DNA of 28,740 nt from a virus. Both the position numbers and the translations under genes were made by a program. The stretch is from positions 1 through 28,740 of the IMG/VR virus record IMGVR_UViG_3300025079_000017, one strand, 5' to 3'. Positions 1-28,740 of this stretch are shown here, piece by piece. The notes beneath the pieces were generated by a model. That model saw nothing but the letters and a program-made list of their open reading frames with translations, ran no database searches and was not told where the DNA came from. Position 1 is the stretch's first letter, and each line of letters opens with the position of its first letter.

Positions 1-147
1 TTTAATTATGTAAGGCTTTGCTTTTTTATAAAATTAGTGTTCATAAACCTATCCCCTTCAAAGATTGCTGTTTTATTTACTTTATTAATATAAACTAGCA
101 TTTTATCTAGGTCTTTCATTACCGCCATACTTAACTTATCGCTACCC
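1..147. repeat. Left copy of the terminal direct repeat (contig-end redundancy)
   Basis: Bases 1-147 are repeated at 28593-28740. The only difference I see is a T run after 'aaggctttgc' that has six T here and seven in the right copy. The repeat lies inside the kinase gene and has no feature of its own. It may be a true short direct terminal repeat, or the overlap left when a circular or circularly permuted genome is linearised. The homopolymer mismatch suggests that the two ends were sequenced independently (long-read type error), because an exact k-mer overlap would be identical. Confidence 0.93.
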
Positions 148-302
148 TCAAAAGTAGAATTATCATATTTACCTACTACTATATTTTTATCTGTTTCGTT
201 AAAATAATTTAAACCAAGTTTAAATCCTTTACTGTTTTTAATTAGTTGTTTTAAAACCCAAGTCTTGCCAACTCCACACTCTCCAATTACCAATATAATC
301 AT
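6..302 (-). CDS. P-loop kinase of DNA base-modification type, frameshifted left copy
   Basis: A small P-loop NTPase with a Walker A motif GECGVGKT at residues 7-14 after a hydrophobic first strand. It also has GKYD at 44-47, EGSDKLSM at 52-59, and a Walker B-like strand ending FEGDRF at 81-86. This pattern fits the phage nucleoside/DNA-base kinases described next to TET/JBP dioxygenases and in 5-hydroxymethyluracil hypermodification pathways; that assignment is from family knowledge. The start overlaps the stop of the ParB-like gene by 4 bases (ATGA type). After residue 94 this copy ends in an aberrant QSLT because a T run is one base short. The right-end copy continues in frame, and joining the two gives a protein of about 163 residues. 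I read the break as a sequencing error rather than a real pseudogene. Confidence 0.85.
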   Translation of the reverse strand: MIILVIGECGVGKTWVLKQLIKNSKGFKLGLNYFNETDKNIVVGKYDNSTFEGSDKLSMAVMKDLDKMLVYINKVNKTAIFEGDRFMNTNFIKKQSLT

Positions 303-859
303 CTATCGTTTTTAAAGGCATTTAAAACAATTAATCCTACATTCATACCATCCTTTCTTGCTGTGTTTATTAATTCAGCAGCTTGATCGTAATGCTCAGG
401 TTCAAATTCAATTTGGATTGCCCTCTTTACTCCATCTATTTTGTCTTGTAAAGTATTGCCTAAATCTATATCATCTAAGGCTGAATAGTCCACAGCTTCT
501 TCCGGTTGCCAAACATCCATTCCCCATTCTCCTAGCTTTACATTATCCCATTCGTTTCCTAAACTATCCCAATCCCACTCTCCGAATCCTACATTATCCT
601 TTACGATAAATTCTTTTTTTTGTTCTTCTGTTAATCCTTTGGCTATCTTTACATTAACTTCTTTTAAACCTGCCTGAACACAGGCTTTGTAACGCATATT
701 GCCGCCTAGTATAGTCATATCTTCATCAACTATAATAGGTCTAAGTTCTAACATTTTAGGAAAATCCTTTATGCTTTGCACTAGTTTTTTAAATTTAGCT
801 TCCTTGATAATTCTAGGATTGCTTTCGTTTGGTTTTAACTGATTGATTTTTAGTTTCAT
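299..859 (-). CDS. ParB/Srx-like domain protein, probable DNA-modification partner
   Basis: A 186-residue protein with an N-terminal ParB/sulfiredoxin-like fold: ESNPR at 12-16, a hydrophobic strand near 41-50, and GGNMRYKA at 52-59. It then has KDNVGFGEWDWD near 88-99. Free-standing ParB-like domains of this kind are common in phages beside DNA methylases, kinases and TET/JBP oxygenases, where they probably bind or act on DNA; they are not partition proteins there. A second small region (146-183) is not recognised. It is the first gene of its operon. The late element TTCTATTATAT ends only 3 bases before its ATG, and its stop overlaps the kinase start. No methyltransferase domain is fused to it or encoded nearby. 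Confidence 0.88.
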   Translation of the reverse strand: MKLKINQLKPNESNPRIIKEAKFKKLVQSIKDFPKMLELRPIIVDEDMTILGGNMRYKACVQAGLKEVNVKIAKGLTEEQKKEFIVKDNVGFGEWDWDSLGNEWDNVKLGEWGMDVWQPEEAVDYSALDDIDLGNTLQDKIDGVKRAIQIEFEPEHYDQAAELINTARKDGMNVGLIVLNAFKNDR

Positions 860-3522: not shown

Positions 3523-3721
3523 ATATCTGTATTAAATTTTCTATTTCATCTCTTGGAATAAATCCTGATTGATGTATTACCATATGAACCATAGAAGGGA
3601 TTGCAATTAAATTATCTAAACTATTATTTTCGTGATTAAAGTCTATATGGTGAACTTCCCAATTATCGGGAATTTGACCTATATTTTGTTCATAGAGTTT
3701 TCTGTAATTAGTTGTTTTCAT
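3500..3721 (-). CDS. Small HNH endonuclease
   Basis: A 73-residue protein that is essentially one HNH domain: VHHIDFNHENNSLDNL at 23-38 with catalytic H24-H25, N33 and the DNL turn, then HMVIHQ with H46 and H50. HNH proteins nick or cut DNA, either as homing enzymes or in phage DNA processing. No DNA-recognition domain is attached. It sits between replication-type genes and NinG, with overlaps at both ends, so it may be a mobile homing gene that has settled in the operon or a working partner of NinG. Confidence 0.85.
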   Translation of the reverse strand: MKTTNYRKLYEQNIGQIPDNWEVHHIDFNHENNSLDNLIAIPSMVHMVIHQSGFIPRDEIENLIQIYEVNKQT

Positions 3722-4016
3722 ATCCTAAGTCTTTACGCCATTTATCTTGATAAGTTCCTTTTCTTAAGTAGTATTTTTTCCCTCTGTATTTAGGTTCTTC
3801 TTCTTGTAGCTTTGCTCTTGCTCTTTTAATGCTTGGGGCTGAAGTAAATTTATTACTAGCATATAGTTTTAAAAACTCTACGATTGGTGTTGATTGAGTT
3901 ATTCCTTCTATATGTGTAAGTTCTTCAGCCCATATATTAGAACATAACCTATTATCATTATCTCTTAAATCAGGGTACATATTTAGCCAAAATTTAACTT
4001 TTTCTTTTGTTTTCAT
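3708..4016 (-). CDS. Conserved phage hypothetical, replication region
   Basis: A 102-residue protein with a motif near the N-terminus, MYPDLRDNDNRLCSNIW, then LKLYASNKFTSAPSIKRARA and a basic C-terminus (KYRGKKYYLRKG). I recognise this pattern as common in flavobacterial phage early regions but know of no function. The basic tail suggests nucleic-acid binding. It is coupled by a 4-base overlap to the gene upstream and by 14 bases to the HNH gene. Confidence 0.88.
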   Translation of the reverse strand: MKTKEKVKFWLNMYPDLRDNDNRLCSNIWAEELTHIEGITQSTPIVEFLKLYASNKFTSAPSIKRARAKLQEEEPKYRGKKYYLRKGTYQDKWRKDLGYENN

Positions 4017-4995: not shown

Positions 4996-5501
4996 ATAAT
5001 CTTAATTGTATAGTGGTAATCTTGCAGGGCTAAATTAACATTTTCTAATTGATTAGAGAAATCAAAATAAGAAGTTTTTATTATACATTTTATTTGACCA
5101 CTAGTTACTTCTAGAAATACATCAGGGTCTAAAGTTTCTTTAACACCATTTTTTAACAAGTACCTTTTCATAAAATCTTTATCTAAGAAAAATTCTTTAG
5201 TTCCCCCAATATCTTTATAGGCTTTATAAATTTTATTAAAGGTATTTCTATACACTAAACAGGTAGCATAGTTTTTTTTGTGTGTATATTCATAATGATA
5301 AATAAGACTTCTATCTCTATTTAAAACTTTACCTATAATTGATCTATGTATATCTTCTTCAGTTCTACCTATATACCCTGCAACAGCCCTAGCTACTTGT
5401 AAGGGTCGCTTCCTACTTCTTAAAGCAAGTGCGCCATCAGGCAGCCCTAGAACCCTAGTTGTAAGGCTGCATAGTTTTTTAAAGTTATCTTCTGCTGTCA
5501 T
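4992..5501 (-). CDS. DnaA domain-IV-like DNA-binding protein
   Basis: A 169-residue protein. Residues 28-77 resemble the C-terminal DNA-binding domain of DnaA: RSRKRPLQVARAVAGYIG, then a spacer and IIGKVLNRDRSLIYHYEYTH, which parallels the IG-x-x-F-x-R-D-H-S/T-x-V signature. The usual histidine is replaced by arginine (RDRS). There is no AAA+ ATPase domain; the C-terminal 90 residues are unlike DnaA and are not recognised. It may bind DnaA-box-like sites at the phage origin, or compete with host DnaA. It sits between the SSB-like and winged-helix genes, so a role in initiation fits. Confidence 0.75.
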   Translation of the reverse strand: MTAEDNFKKLCSLTTRVLGLPDGALALRSRKRPLQVARAVAGYIGRTEEDIHRSIIGKVLNRDRSLIYHYEYTHKKNYATCLVYRNTFNKIYKAYKDIGGTKEFFLDKDFMKRYLLKNGVKETLDPDVFLEVTSGQIKCIIKTSYFDFSNQLENVNLALQDYHYTIKII

Positions 5502-5812
5502 TAGAAAGGCATTTCATCAGTTTCTCCAACAGTTTCTTTCCCTAGTTTAGCAATAAGCCACCCATCTATATTATGAAAGTATTTGCCGTTGTACTCCCTT
5601 GAAGATAAGTTAATTGAAACATTTACATCAGATCCTACTTCAATATCTCTAAGGCTTTTGATCTTATCACCAAAGAAACTTATTGCTACTTCTTTGTTAT
5701 AGTCTGTCCCTGACTGCTCTACAAGTATAGACTGTTTTCTCCATTCTTTTCCTGCTTTTGATATACCGCTTTCTATTGGTAATTTTTGTGTTAATTTTCC
5801 TATAATATCCAT
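5501..5812 (-). CDS. DUF3127 OB-fold single-strand DNA-binding-like protein
   Basis: A 103-residue protein of DUF3127 type, a Bacteroidota OB-fold family. Seen here are the IIGKLTQKLP first strand, SGISKAGKEWRKQSILVE, VAISFFGDKI and NLSSREYNGKYFHNIDGW. The last residues, DEMPF, mimic the acidic hydrophobic tip of bacterial SSB (D-D-D-I-P-F) that docks partner proteins. It probably coats single-stranded phage DNA and recruits host replication or repair enzymes. It is coupled by TAATG to the basic coiled-coil gene upstream and overlaps the DnaA-like gene by one base. Confidence 0.85.
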   Translation of the reverse strand: MDIIGKLTQKLPIESGISKAGKEWRKQSILVEQSGTDYNKEVAISFFGDKIKSLRDIEVGSDVNVSINLSSREYNGKYFHNIDGWLIAKLGKETVGETDEMPF

Positions 5813-8618: not shown

Positions 8619-9107
8619 TTATTTATTTTTAATTATTAAATTTATATTAGTGCCGCCTAAATTAATTATTTCTTTCATAAGTAAATCCATAGCTAAAGTT
8701 GAATTATGAACAAAGTCCTGTTTGCGACCTATCCCTACTAGGATGCAACCTCTTGTATCTTTAGCTGAATTTCCTCTATGAAATAGTATATAAGTGCGGT
8801 CTTTTACATCTTGCACTAACAAGTGAAGATAGTTTCTTGTAGCTGATTCCCTAGCATATCTCATTCTTACTTTGTAATGACCATCAGGAATACAACTTAT
8901 GCTTCTTTTATTATCAAGATAAGGAAGCTCTAAAGTATCACACATCCACTCACCATTAATAAATAACTTTCCAACAGTAGAATTTTCTGTAAAAGTATCT
9001 CGTATTATTAAAAGATTAATTTTAGAATCCAACTCTTTAGGAATGGATTGAATAAACTTTAACTCCTTTAACTTCTTGAACAAATCTTTTATCCACTTTA
9101 ATATCAT
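8619..9107 (-). CDS. DUF5675-type protein, candidate cell-wall lysis enzyme
   Basis: A 162-residue protein. After a basic N-terminal stretch (ILKWIKDLFKKLKELKF) the DUF5675-like domain runs from about residue 30 with GEWMCDTLELPYLDN, CIPDGHYKVRMRYA, and ILFHRGNSAKDTRGCILVG near 112-130. The H-x-G-N...T-x-G-C-I pattern recalls the HG...S-x-G-C core of L,D-transpeptidase-like folds, so it may cut or rearrange peptidoglycan. That is inference, because DUF5675 has no established activity that I know of. No lysozyme, amidase or peptidase is seen elsewhere in the window, and the gene lies between two holin-like genes. This makes it the best endolysin candidate. Confidence 0.75.
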   Translation of the reverse strand: MILKWIKDLFKKLKELKFIQSIPKELDSKINLLIIRDTFTENSTVGKLFINGEWMCDTLELPYLDNKRSISCIPDGHYKVRMRYARESATRNYLHLLVQDVKDRTYILFHRGNSAKDTRGCILVGIGRKQDFVHNSTLAMDLLMKEIINLGGTNINLIIKNK

Positions 9108-26096: not shown

Positions 26097-27299
26097 CTAT
26101 TGTACAAAATACTTACCTGCATTTGGATTGTCTAAATGGTATATAACATTGTAACGAATACCATCAATAGCGTGATTGTAATTATCTACATATAATTTTG
26201 AGGATTTGTCGCTGTAAATATAATTATTTAATTCTTTAGCTATGTTAGTTGATTCAGGGCTTACTATTAAATGATAATCTTGCATACGAGTTATACCGCT
26301 TTCAATAGTTCCTTTCTTTACAGGCTTAATGTTTACTCCTAAATGCTTTAAATCTGCTATCAGTCTAGGTTCTGAGCTATCAGCAATTATTAAAGTTTGT
26401 TCTACTTTGTCTAAAACTATCTTAGCTAATTCTTGCGACTTTAATCCATTCTGATAGATATGTTCCTTTAAATATATCTTCTTATGCTTTTTATCTATGG
26501 CTACTTCTGTGAGGCTATCAGGGTCTACTGAGAATCCAAAGTCCATTCCACAAGAAGTTTGTAAGTTATCAGGATTAAATTCGCCTATTGACCAATTTTC
26601 AAATACAACACCCTCAGCTTTGTCTAGCCACCCTCCTAAGATTTTATGCGTGTACTTCTTAAAGTTATTATGCTTTATGCTCTTAATACGCTCTAGGAAG
26701 CTCGTAGAAAGATTATCTTTATTGTCTAAGTAAGTGCTATGAATGTAGCATACATTGTCTTTAACGCCATTAAAACCACCCTCTACACCTTTTTCTTGGA
26801 AGAACCTGTTATAAATCCAATGTTCTTTAGTAACTGGGTTTAATATTAGTATGATTCTATTCTGAATGTCTTTCTCCCTAATACTTAAATCAATAGTATC
26901 AAAGATGTTTTCATCTACAAGTTCTTCAGCTTCATCTAATACCCAAGTGCTTATTCCCTGTAAAGACTTAAGACTAGCTGTTTGGTTTCCTGCTGAAGTT
27001 CTAATACCTCTAAACAGAATGTCTGACTGATTGCTTGTATTTAATACTTCTGCTTTATTAATACTAAAGACTTCATCAAACCCTAATAGCCCTATCTTTT
27101 CTAAGAACTCAGGAATGATTGACAAATGAGCTGAAGTCATTGTAAATCTTGTAAAGAGTATTCTAATACCCTTAGTCATAGTAAGTAAAGTCAGAAATAC
27201 TGTGGCTGCAAAAGACTTCCCTGATCCTCTACCACCTGTTATAATAAAGTAACGGCAATTAGATTCAAAGAGTGGATTGTATTTTTTATTCAGTATCAG
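26097..27299 (-). CDS. terL: Terminase large subunit, non-ATG start
   Basis: A protein of about 400 residues of the PBSX-like (Terminase_3) type. Counting from the CTG at 27299, the Walker A motif GGRGSGKS is at 22-29, Walker B WVLDEAEE at 119-126, a coupling motif LILNPV at 151-156, and the nuclease acidic residues D253 (GMDFG), D307 (IIADSS) and D379 (HAIDGIR). It pumps DNA into the prohead and cuts it. The first in-frame ATG, at 27179, lies after Walker A, so it cannot be the real start. The frame is open to 27302 without ATG; CTG (27299) and ATA (27296) are the only candidates and give an N-terminus of ILNKKYNPLF. The start overlaps the last codons of terS, so coupled reinitiation is likely. 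A sequence error is the alternative. Confidence 0.88.
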   Translation of the reverse strand: MILNKKYNPLFESNCRYFIITGGRGSGKSFAATVFLTLLTMTKGIRILFTRFTMTSAHLSIIPEFLEKIGLLGFDEVFSINKAEVLNTSNQSDILFRGIRTSAGNQTASLKSLQGISTWVLDEAEELVDENIFDTIDLSIREKDIQNRIILILNPVTKEHWIYNRFFQEKGVEGGFNGVKDNVCYIHSTYLDNKDNLSTSFLERIKSIKHNNFKKYTHKILGGWLDKAEGVVFENWSIGEFNPDNLQTSCGMDFGFSVDPDSLTEVAIDKKHKKIYLKEHIYQNGLKSQELAKIVLDKVEQTLIIADSSEPRLIADLKHLGVNIKPVKKGTIESGITRMQDYHLIVSPESTNIAKELNNYIYSDKSSKLYVDNYNHAIDGIRYNVIYHLDNPNAGKYFVQ

Positions 27300-27639
27300 T
27301 TTCTACAAATGTTATTACAGGCATATTTATAGCCTTATCACCTGAAGTAATGTCTAGCCTATTTGTTTCATTCCATCCAAGTCTAGTCTTAGCAGCGTGT
27401 ATTACAACTGAAGGTACTTTGTCCTTTACACATTCATAATACTTTGATTTAATAAAATCTTGCTGTATGCTTTCTATTTCTTCTACTTTACCTGCAAATT
27501 CCTTATCTTCTTTTAGCCATTTATAGAAATTAGTTCTTGATAAATCAGTTGCCTTTAATGCAGTTGTTATTACTCCTAGACTACTTTCTAAAGCCTTTAA
27601 CATTCTTTCTTTGTTGATTTGTGTTCTATTCTGTTCCAT
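27286..27639 (-). CDS. terS: Terminase small subunit
   Basis: A 117-residue protein directly before terL. The N-terminal helix-turn-helix reads MLKALESSLGVITTALKATD then LSRTNFYKWLKEDKEFAGKV (13-52), as in DNA-recognising small terminases. A central helix (EEIESIQQDFIKSKYYECVK) serves oligomerisation, and a V-P-S-V-V-I-H-A-A-K-TRLGW section follows, the common end of the family. It recognises the phage DNA for packaging. It is followed by terL with a short overlap, and one base separates it from the dioxygenase gene upstream. Confidence 0.88.
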   Translation of the reverse strand: MEQNRTQINKERMLKALESSLGVITTALKATDLSRTNFYKWLKEDKEFAGKVEEIESIQQDFIKSKYYECVKDKVPSVVIHAAKTRLGWNETNRLDITSGDKAINMPVITFVETDTE

Positions 27640-27640
27640 T

Positions 27641-28444
27641 CTATATTCCTTTAAATGCTTTCAATGGGTAGAAGATTAAGCTATTTCTATACCCATCTTC
27701 GCTTATTTGTTTTATTGGTGTTACTCCGTGTACATTCTTCCAAGCAGGGTACACTAACATTGAATTGTCAGCTTGTTCAAAGGTTACATTATAGTCAGGC
27801 ACATTTAAGCACCCCCCATTTGCATTGTTTCTTTTAGTTAAGATTGTGTTTACTGTGCCTTGAATGTTTCCTGTATCTCTGTGGAAAGCTGCTGCTATAT
27901 TGAAGTTAGATATACTGCTTGTGTACATATTACCAAACCTCCATTCTTTTTTTACATCTTTAAATAATTCTATTTGCCTTTTATAAATATGAGGGGTTAA
28001 TTTCTTGATGATTTGCTCTGCTTCTAAACAAGCACCCCACATAGCTTTAATAAATATTTGTGCTTTTGGCTCTCTATGTACTGGAGTTATGCTTGGGTAT
28101 GGCATTCTCATATGAGGTTTAGGAGCTCTACTTCCAAGTATTGTACTGTATTGAGTTACTAAATTCTTACCTTCTATTTGTCTTTTGAATTTATCGTGCT
28201 TATTCCCTTGGGGACCTCTACTCATTTCTGCTTTAGGTACATTATCACTTCTAAATTCTTTATTAGCTATTGCTATTAATTGCTGTAACTTGTTACTATA
28301 CTTTTTTACATCTTTAATATAAAAACCAATTATCTCGCCATCTAACTCTAATAAGCAATCTTCTTTTACATTAGGCTCAAAGTAAGGACAGTCTTTACCA
28401 ATCTTAGTTTTGTGTTCTACTTGTTCTAATTTTAGTGTTTTCAT
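27641..28444 (-). CDS. TET/JBP-like 2-oxoglutarate/Fe(II) DNA dioxygenase
   Basis: A 267-residue protein. The C-terminal half holds the double-stranded beta-helix signature of TET/JBP oxygenases: TSSISNFNIAAAFHRDTGN with H188 and D190 as iron ligands, a GGCLNVPDYNVTFEQADNS section at 210-228, the distal H239 in NVHGVTPI, and R253 in YRNSLIFYP for 2-oxoglutarate. The N-terminal 100 residues are a basic region (RGPQGNKHDKFKRQI) and may bind DNA. TET/JBP enzymes oxidise 5-methylcytosine or thymine in DNA to hydroxymethyl bases. It is embedded between kinase (41-base overlap) and terS (one-base gap), so it is a component of a modification cassette. The alternative is a 2-oxoglutarate enzyme acting on another substrate. 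Confidence 0.85.
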   Translation of the reverse strand: MKTLKLEQVEHKTKIGKDCPYFEPNVKEDCLLELDGEIIGFYIKDVKKYSNKLQQLIAIANKEFRSDNVPKAEMSRGPQGNKHDKFKRQIEGKNLVTQYSTILGSRAPKPHMRMPYPSITPVHREPKAQIFIKAMWGACLEAEQIIKKLTPHIYKRQIELFKDVKKEWRFGNMYTSSISNFNIAAAFHRDTGNIQGTVNTILTKRNNANGGCLNVPDYNVTFEQADNSMLVYPAWKNVHGVTPIKQISEDGYRNSLIFYPLKAFKGI

Positions 28445-28740
28445 AGCTTTGTATTATATTTAAACATTCATTTGAATTTTCTACTTCTTTGTCTGCTTTT
28501 ATGTTTTTAACTCTTGTCTTAATAGTTTTTAATTGTCTTTCTGTTTGTTGACTTCCTCTCTTTAGCCTTCCACCCTTACCATCTCCTTTTATTTTAATTA
28601 TGTAAGGCTTTGCTTTTTTTATAAAATTAGTGTTCATAAACCTATCCCCTTCAAAGATTGCTGTTTTATTTACTTTATTAATATAAACTAGCATTTTATC
28701 TAGGTCTTTCATTACCGCCATACTTAACTTATCGCTACCC
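28404..28740 (-). CDS. P-loop kinase of DNA base-modification type, C-terminal part cut by the contig end
   Basis: The in-frame right-end copy of the kinase. The 5' part lies beyond the window edge and corresponds to bases 148-302 at the left end. Here the T run has seven bases and the frame continues through NTNFIKKAKPYIIKIKGDGK into a basic tail, KRGSQQTERQLKTIKTRVKN. The R...Q-x-E-R-x-L-K...T-R-V-K-N-I series recalls the lid and substrate section of phage base kinases. Joined with the left part, the full protein is about 163 residues. Its end overlaps the dioxygenase start by 41 bases, so the two are closely coupled. Confidence 0.85.
   Translation of the reverse strand, partial: GSDKLSMAVMKDLDKMLVYINKVNKTAIFEGDRFMNTNFIKKAKPYIIKIKGDGKGGRLKRGSQQTERQLKTIKTRVKNIKADKEVENSNECLNIIQSYENTKIRTSRTQN
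28593..28740. repeat. Right copy of the terminal direct repeat
   Basis: Repeats bases 1-147 with one extra T (seven instead of six) in the run near 28614-28620. The unique genome is therefore about 28.59 kb. The right copy restores the kinase reading frame, so it is the more likely correct version. Confidence 0.93.

Follow-up and report, generated by a model that had tools for sequence, protein, structure and literature searches.

Hypermodification of DNA bases by TET/JBP enzymes is already known, and systems of this general kind are said to have been predicted in earlier work. In phage systems that combine a TET/JBP oxygenase (PF12851) with a TET-associated glycosyltransferase (TAGT; PF20691), the TET gene adjoins the gene for an enzyme that decorates hydroxyls, in the company of a ParB-like gene and a terminase. 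Phages M6, ViI and PhiW-14 hypermodify thymidine by pathways in which a 5-hmdU DNA kinase and an amino-acid:DNA transferase are followed by later enzymes, and in M6 a gene of the thymidylate synthase family lies near the kinase gene; thus, 5-hydroxymethyluracil (5hmU) is made at the nucleotide level in that phage. Actinophages carry modules of the order ParB-TET-ADDT-Ploopntkinase3 (LilMcDreamy and Tonitrus) or ParB-TET-Ploopntkinase3-TerL (MementoMori), where ADDT is an amino-acid:DNA transferase (PF18724). Finally, Melnitz-type marine myophages encode a C5-methyltransferase, a TET and a kinase in a system that presumably modifies cytosine.

Here we describe a locus in a small marine phage whose nearest relatives are exactly of the TET/JBP plus TAGT type. 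The phage itself differs from them in having a kinase candidate in the position of the glycosyltransferase, with no other later-step enzyme found. This kinase-only arrangement, together with the exchange of genes at that position, is what is new. We propose that the locus is a packaging-linked module for DNA base hypermodification in which a TET enzyme and then a kinase would convert thymine to 5-phosphomethyluracil, and we place the probability of this proposal as a whole at roughly 0.68.

Results

Organization of the locus

The window, by which we mean the entire 28,740-nt record analysed, is a circular phage genome, since the ends of the record repeat one another: positions 1 to 147 equal positions 28593 to 28740 except for one T in a T run. 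Read on the minus strand across the circular junction, the genes encode a ParB-N protein, a P-loop protein, TET, TerS and TerL, in that order. The first gene (299 to 859, minus strand) encodes a 186-aa protein with a ParB-N domain (PF02195, 29.4 bits against a cut-off of 26.3) and overlaps the start of the P-loop gene by 4 bases. The P-loop gene is split by the ends of the record with nothing missing. Its N-terminal third lies at 148 to 302 (minus strand) and its C-terminal two thirds at 28404 to 28740 (minus strand), and rejoining the parts through 302 to 148 yields an in-frame protein of 163 aa. A listed open reading frame of 98 aa at 6 to 302 (minus strand) is a frame-shifted copy of the 5' part of this gene, produced by the lack of one T in a homopolymer at the end of the record. 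The P-loop frame ends at 28404, and its overlap with the TET gene (27641 to 28444, minus strand, 267 aa) is exactly the 41 bases that the sequence-only reading had given.

Directly after TET come a candidate terminase small subunit with a helix-turn-helix (27286 to 27639, minus strand, 117 aa; phrog_4044, 4e-5) and the terminase large subunit (26097 to 27179, minus strand; PF04466, 2.9e-26, and PF17288). This is the gene order claimed in the sequence-only reading, which had described a cassette of TET and kinase ahead of the packaging genes. That description stands, with the correction that the upstream ParB-like gene also belongs to the module. The TerL open frame extends 5' to about 27290 and takes in a Walker A motif (GGRGSGKS), and this extension has no ATG, GTG or TTG start. 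A TTG-TTG in the relative L010 corresponds to TTG-TAG in the window frame, and the options for the TerL start are CTG or ATA, re-initiation, or a sequence error.

Elsewhere in the window, positions 5501 to 5812 and 8619 to 9107 encode DUF3127 and DUF5675 proteins, which may suggest a Bacteroidetes host. A scan of genome contigs returned four MAG contigs (from a beta-proteobacterium, Flavobacteriaceae and Oscillatoria), which do not settle the host.

The TET/JBP oxygenase

The oxygenase scores 37.5 bits against PF12851 (Tet_JBP), above the curated cut-off of 34.9 bits. This is the relevant Pfam family, rather than PF20515, which had been named earlier as the one to check. A profile of 29 relatives retrieves human TET2 from the PDB, with the HRD, H and R residues lined up in the profile alignment. 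The predicted H188-x-D190, H239 and R253 are all present in the frame, and on the TET2 alignment H188, D190 and H239 would be the metal ligands and R253 the 2-oxoglutarate ligand; the HxD...H triad and the arginine are invariant among the 29 sequences. When an AlphaFold2 model of the protein (pLDDT 87) was searched against the PDB, ranks 1 to 26 were all members of the TET family (TET2, CcTet, NgTET1 and CMD1), followed by FTO and AlkB. Membership in a protein-hydroxylase family is therefore unlikely, because the TET2 residues align and TET-family structures precede FTO and AlkB, and the assignment to TET/JBP made from the sequence holds in profile, catalytic residues and fold. The enzyme probably hydroxylates a base in the phage's own DNA, most likely thymine.

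A label of queuine tRNA-ribosyltransferase (phrog_6059 and RefSeq names) was also considered and rejected, as that family was named from a wrong annotation and both Pfam and fold indicate Tet_JBP. The same mislabel is widespread in RefSeq phage records and PHROGs, as seen for the TET/JBP proteins of L084, L085 and L111 and for phrog_6059.

The P-loop kinase candidate

The rejoined P-loop protein contains a Walker A motif (GECGVGKT) and the GKYD motif in its N-terminal third, and the EGSDKLSM motif, whose E spans the circular junction; the latter two had been noted before. We modelled the structure of the kinase from the relative L010, which is 90% identical to that of the window (pLDDT 89, pTM 0.86). 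The PDB fold matches of this model are P-loop kinases (phosphoseryl-tRNA kinase, guanylate kinase and shikimate kinase). In a viral library, the 5-hmdU DNA kinase of PhiW-14 (C9DG08) is among the best matches (Foldseek probability 1.00, E 1.8e-5, TMq 0.62), and a kinase from Klebsiella phage KpS110 also matches. The possibility of an AAA, KAP or STAND NTPase was rejected, since Pfam gives just weak sub-threshold matches to the Walker A region and the fold search returns kinases.

By sequence the relationship to known base kinases is distant. The protein does not match the profile of 5-hmdU DNA kinases (PF18748, HMUDK_HMUD1), hhalign shows no significant similarity between it and the 5-hmdU kinase of M6 (probability 8), and a sequence search of solved structures with the kinase returned P-loop noise only. 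Profile-profile alignment to 18 Ploopntkinase3 proteins (PF18751) gave a probability of 98.6 (E 1e-15, 132 columns), with Walker A, G.(F)xGxD, EG(D/A)R and Q...N as shared invariant columns. However, the PF18751 cut-off of 27 bits was not reached, the best score being 16.5 bits in a relative, and 2 of 17 members match. Thus, the earlier designation as a phage-type base kinase is upheld as to kinase fold and distant relationship, and fails as to membership in the curated 5-hmdU kinase family. Fold, motifs and context indicate a protein that works like a base kinase and lies outside both curated families.

Purifying selection acts on the kinase (dN/dS of about 0.05-0.13) and on TET (0.03-0.14, both where calculable), and the pair is seen again in more than 10 other records; the association is therefore far beyond chance.

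Exchange of the gene between ParB and TET

Among relatives, the order ParB-[slot]-TET-TerS is fixed and the content of the slot varies. Where there is room to see them, a ParB homologue lies upstream of TET in 60/60 relatives and a TerS homologue downstream in 74/74. The gene before TET is readable in 78 relatives and encodes a TAGT-like glycosyltransferase in 69, the kinase described here in 8 and an FkbM methyltransferase in 1; cyanophage MED4-184 also has FkbM in the slot. The 69 glycosyltransferases fall into seven subfamilies, and of six representatives, three pass the TAGT cut-off, two are slightly under it, and one has no match yet clusters with the others by BLAST. A PF20691 gene next to TET, which relatives have in the slot, is absent from the window and from the other kinase-carrying records searched. 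On a quickly built TET tree, in which two rows are long branches, the kinase label requires at least 10 changes, 5 of them forced by well-supported branches. Moreover, pairs of records whose flanking DNA is 89-96% identical differ solely in the slot, with DNA homology stopping at the end of ParB and restarting at the TET start codon. Hydroxyls are the target of all three families (TAGT, kinase and FkbM), and this is the best reason to propose that the kinase acts on the hydroxyl generated by TET.

Relatives of the kinase in other phages occur beside or fused to the ADDT domain, which links them to the M6, ViI and PhiW-14 pathways, where the kinase has a similar fold; those pathways differ in having the transferase and later enzymes, and the window kinase lies outside the curated family PF18748. 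Thus, L100-L102 have the order ParB-ADDT-DAO-kinase-TET-TerS, and in L095 (2936-4468) ADDT is fused to the family of the window kinase. A PLP-enzyme-like frame and ParB lie upstream of the L095 fusion, and together they form a compact thymidine hypermodification operon. In L097-L099 the kinase follows TET and an ADDT-like gene. The actinophage modules contain the same core genes as the window, with the kinase downstream of TET and mostly next to terL, and their similarity is distant enough to need profile comparison. Among 53 actinophage-like loci with room, the kinase is present in 39/40 with ADDT and in 2/13 without (Fisher 1e-8; 2e-4 when loci are clustered by TET at 90% identity).

The location of the P-loop gene in the packaging region also permits a different explanation, namely that its product serves packaging, either as an NTPase or as a second factor resembling the small terminase, and that TET alone modifies the DNA. 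The N-terminal half of the protein matches phrog_800, a 'terminase small subunit' family (1.6e-5), and homologous Ploopntkinase3 genes lie just before terL in many mycobacteriophages, in at least one of them (Soto) without a TET beside; a packaging role is therefore possible for the wider family. For the window protein we consider such a role very unlikely, as a separate TerS exists and is retained where a glycosyltransferase takes the place of the P-loop gene. In L097-L099 the kinase accompanies TET and an ADDT-like gene and no terminase was detected, L095 has the kinase-ADDT fusion, and in actinophage-like loci the kinase tracks the presence of ADDT. In addition, the modelled fold points to a kinase of small molecules or nucleic acids.

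In mycobacteriophages Stinger, Vincenzo, CRB2 and Soto (L111, L112, L113 and L115), the Ploopntkinase3 gene immediately before terL is annotated as 'terminase small subunit' or 'adenylate kinase' and is accompanied by TET, by 7-deazaguanine genes, or by neither. In Mycobacterium phage Acadian (L114, 1707-3588), a TAGT-like gene, a PIG-L/LmbE-like deacetylase (identified by eye) and a Ploopntkinase3 gene lie between TET and terL, an arrangement for which N-acetylhexosamine decoration followed by deacetylation is possible.

The substrate base

The sequence-only reading had left the substrate as either host-made 5-methylcytosine or thymine, and comparative data now favour thymine. Neither a C5-methyltransferase (PF00145), a thymidylate-synthase-family hydroxymethylase (PF00303), ADDT (PF18724) nor TAGT (PF20691) was found in the window, and thymine is therefore the simplest substrate. 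In an M6-type scheme, TET would replace the thymidylate-synthase-family hydroxymethylase and would make 5hmU in DNA.

The kinase alone does not point to thymine, because Melnitz-like phages pair a relative of it (25-28% identity) with TET and a C5-methyltransferase. In Methylophilales phage Melnitz-3 (L107, 2454-6534), an HhaI-like C5-methyltransferase, TET, a 427-aa protein of unknown function and the homologous kinase lie in a row, which is likely the cytosine counterpart. A cytosine version of the pathway, in which TET would oxidize host-made 5-methylcytosine to 5hmC for phosphorylation by the kinase, draws on these phages: 66/71 Melnitz-type loci have the C5-methyltransferase with TET, and in 22 of the 66 a relative of the kinase is found too. 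A host that methylates cytosine could supply the 5-methylcytosine. However, C5-methyltransferase genes are found in 1/240 ParB-type loci and 0/80 close loci, and neither the window nor 15 relatives contain PF00145; with none in these 16 records or the 80 close loci, the cytosine version would have to rely entirely on methylation by the host.

The Melnitz-type systems further differ from the window in lacking ParB and in two TET positions. By alignment only, N193 and L261 of the window TET correspond to TET2 N1387 and H1904, two base-contact positions. These positions are N/L in ParB-type groups, with few exceptions, and D/D in the readable Melnitz-type proteins. The asparagine is also that of TET2, as a cytosine substrate would allow, but the leucine is shared with ADDT-linked TETs, the methyltransferase-linked TETs being D/D. 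As two sister groups also bear thymidine-hypermodification transferases, we regard cytosine as an improbable substrate and continue with thymine.

The end product

The sequence-only reading had also stated that the genome encodes neither a methyltransferase nor an enzyme adding a final group, and profile searches and direct comparison found neither a C5-methyltransferase nor a later-step enzyme. No ADDT, PLP or DAO-type enzyme was found in the window by either approach, including direct comparison with five transferase sequences. When 4 kinase records were compared with 8 TAGT records for gene content, the kinase was the sole family present in 4/4 and 0/8, and a second partner enzyme elsewhere in the kinase genomes was rejected as none is common to all four. 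A 102-aa protein of no known family (3708-4016, minus strand) occurs in 3/4 kinase genomes and 0/8 glycosyltransferase genomes.

That the phosphate might be the end point had been left open earlier, and it is now plausible because the kinase exchanges with glycosyl- and methyltransferases. Kinase-only modules recur in MementoMori, which has TET and a distant homologue of the window kinase with no transferase beside, and in L214 and L218. Restriction enzymes cut DNA less readily once 5hmdU is phosphorylated, even by this step alone (PMC7653180). Given also the sole kinase-specific family, 5-phosphomethyluracil could therefore be final. We advance only tentatively the idea that 5-phosphomethyl-2'-deoxyuridine is the final nucleoside in virion DNA, made by TET and the kinase with no more steps, and that the lineage swaps phosphate, sugar and O-methyl groups through one gene, since an unrecognised phage gene or a host enzyme could act next.

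In that event the phosphate would be an intermediate, replaced as by the amino-acid:DNA transferases of M6, ViI and PhiW-14. Known phage base kinases reportedly act before a transferase. A predicted system with this order is cited in PMC11955845. Many genes of the window are of unassigned function, the gene at 3708-4016 with its skewed distribution among them. Against this, the window carries no ADDT, PLP or DAO-type enzyme, no family apart from the kinase is in all kinase genomes yet absent from TAGT genomes, and MementoMori, L214 and L218 have kinase-only arrangements; on balance an intermediate seems somewhat unlikely.

Discussion

These observations fit a pathway in which the TET/JBP enzyme would act on a base after its incorporation into phage DNA and hydroxylate its 5-methyl group, most likely converting thymine to 5-hydroxymethyluracil. 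The P-loop kinase would then move the gamma-phosphate of ATP onto the hydroxymethyl hydroxyl, giving 5-phosphomethyluracil in DNA. Relatives would use the exchangeable slot upstream of TET to add a sugar (TAGT) or probably a methyl group (FkbM) to the same hydroxyl. The phosphate may be a finished mark that shields the DNA from host nucleases, and the ParB-like protein and terminase neighbours suggest that modification may take place on concatemers near packaging.

If this proposal is true, swapping a single gene gives the modified DNA of a phage lineage a different end group with hardly any change in the oxidase, and the arms race with modification-dependent restriction could be followed clearly in such a lineage. 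A base that ends in a phosphate would add a new type to the known natural DNA modifications, and a phage TET that oxidizes thymine could be used to introduce 5-hydroxymethyluracil into DNA. The contrast between N/L and D/D at the two TET positions provides a testable rule for the choice of base.
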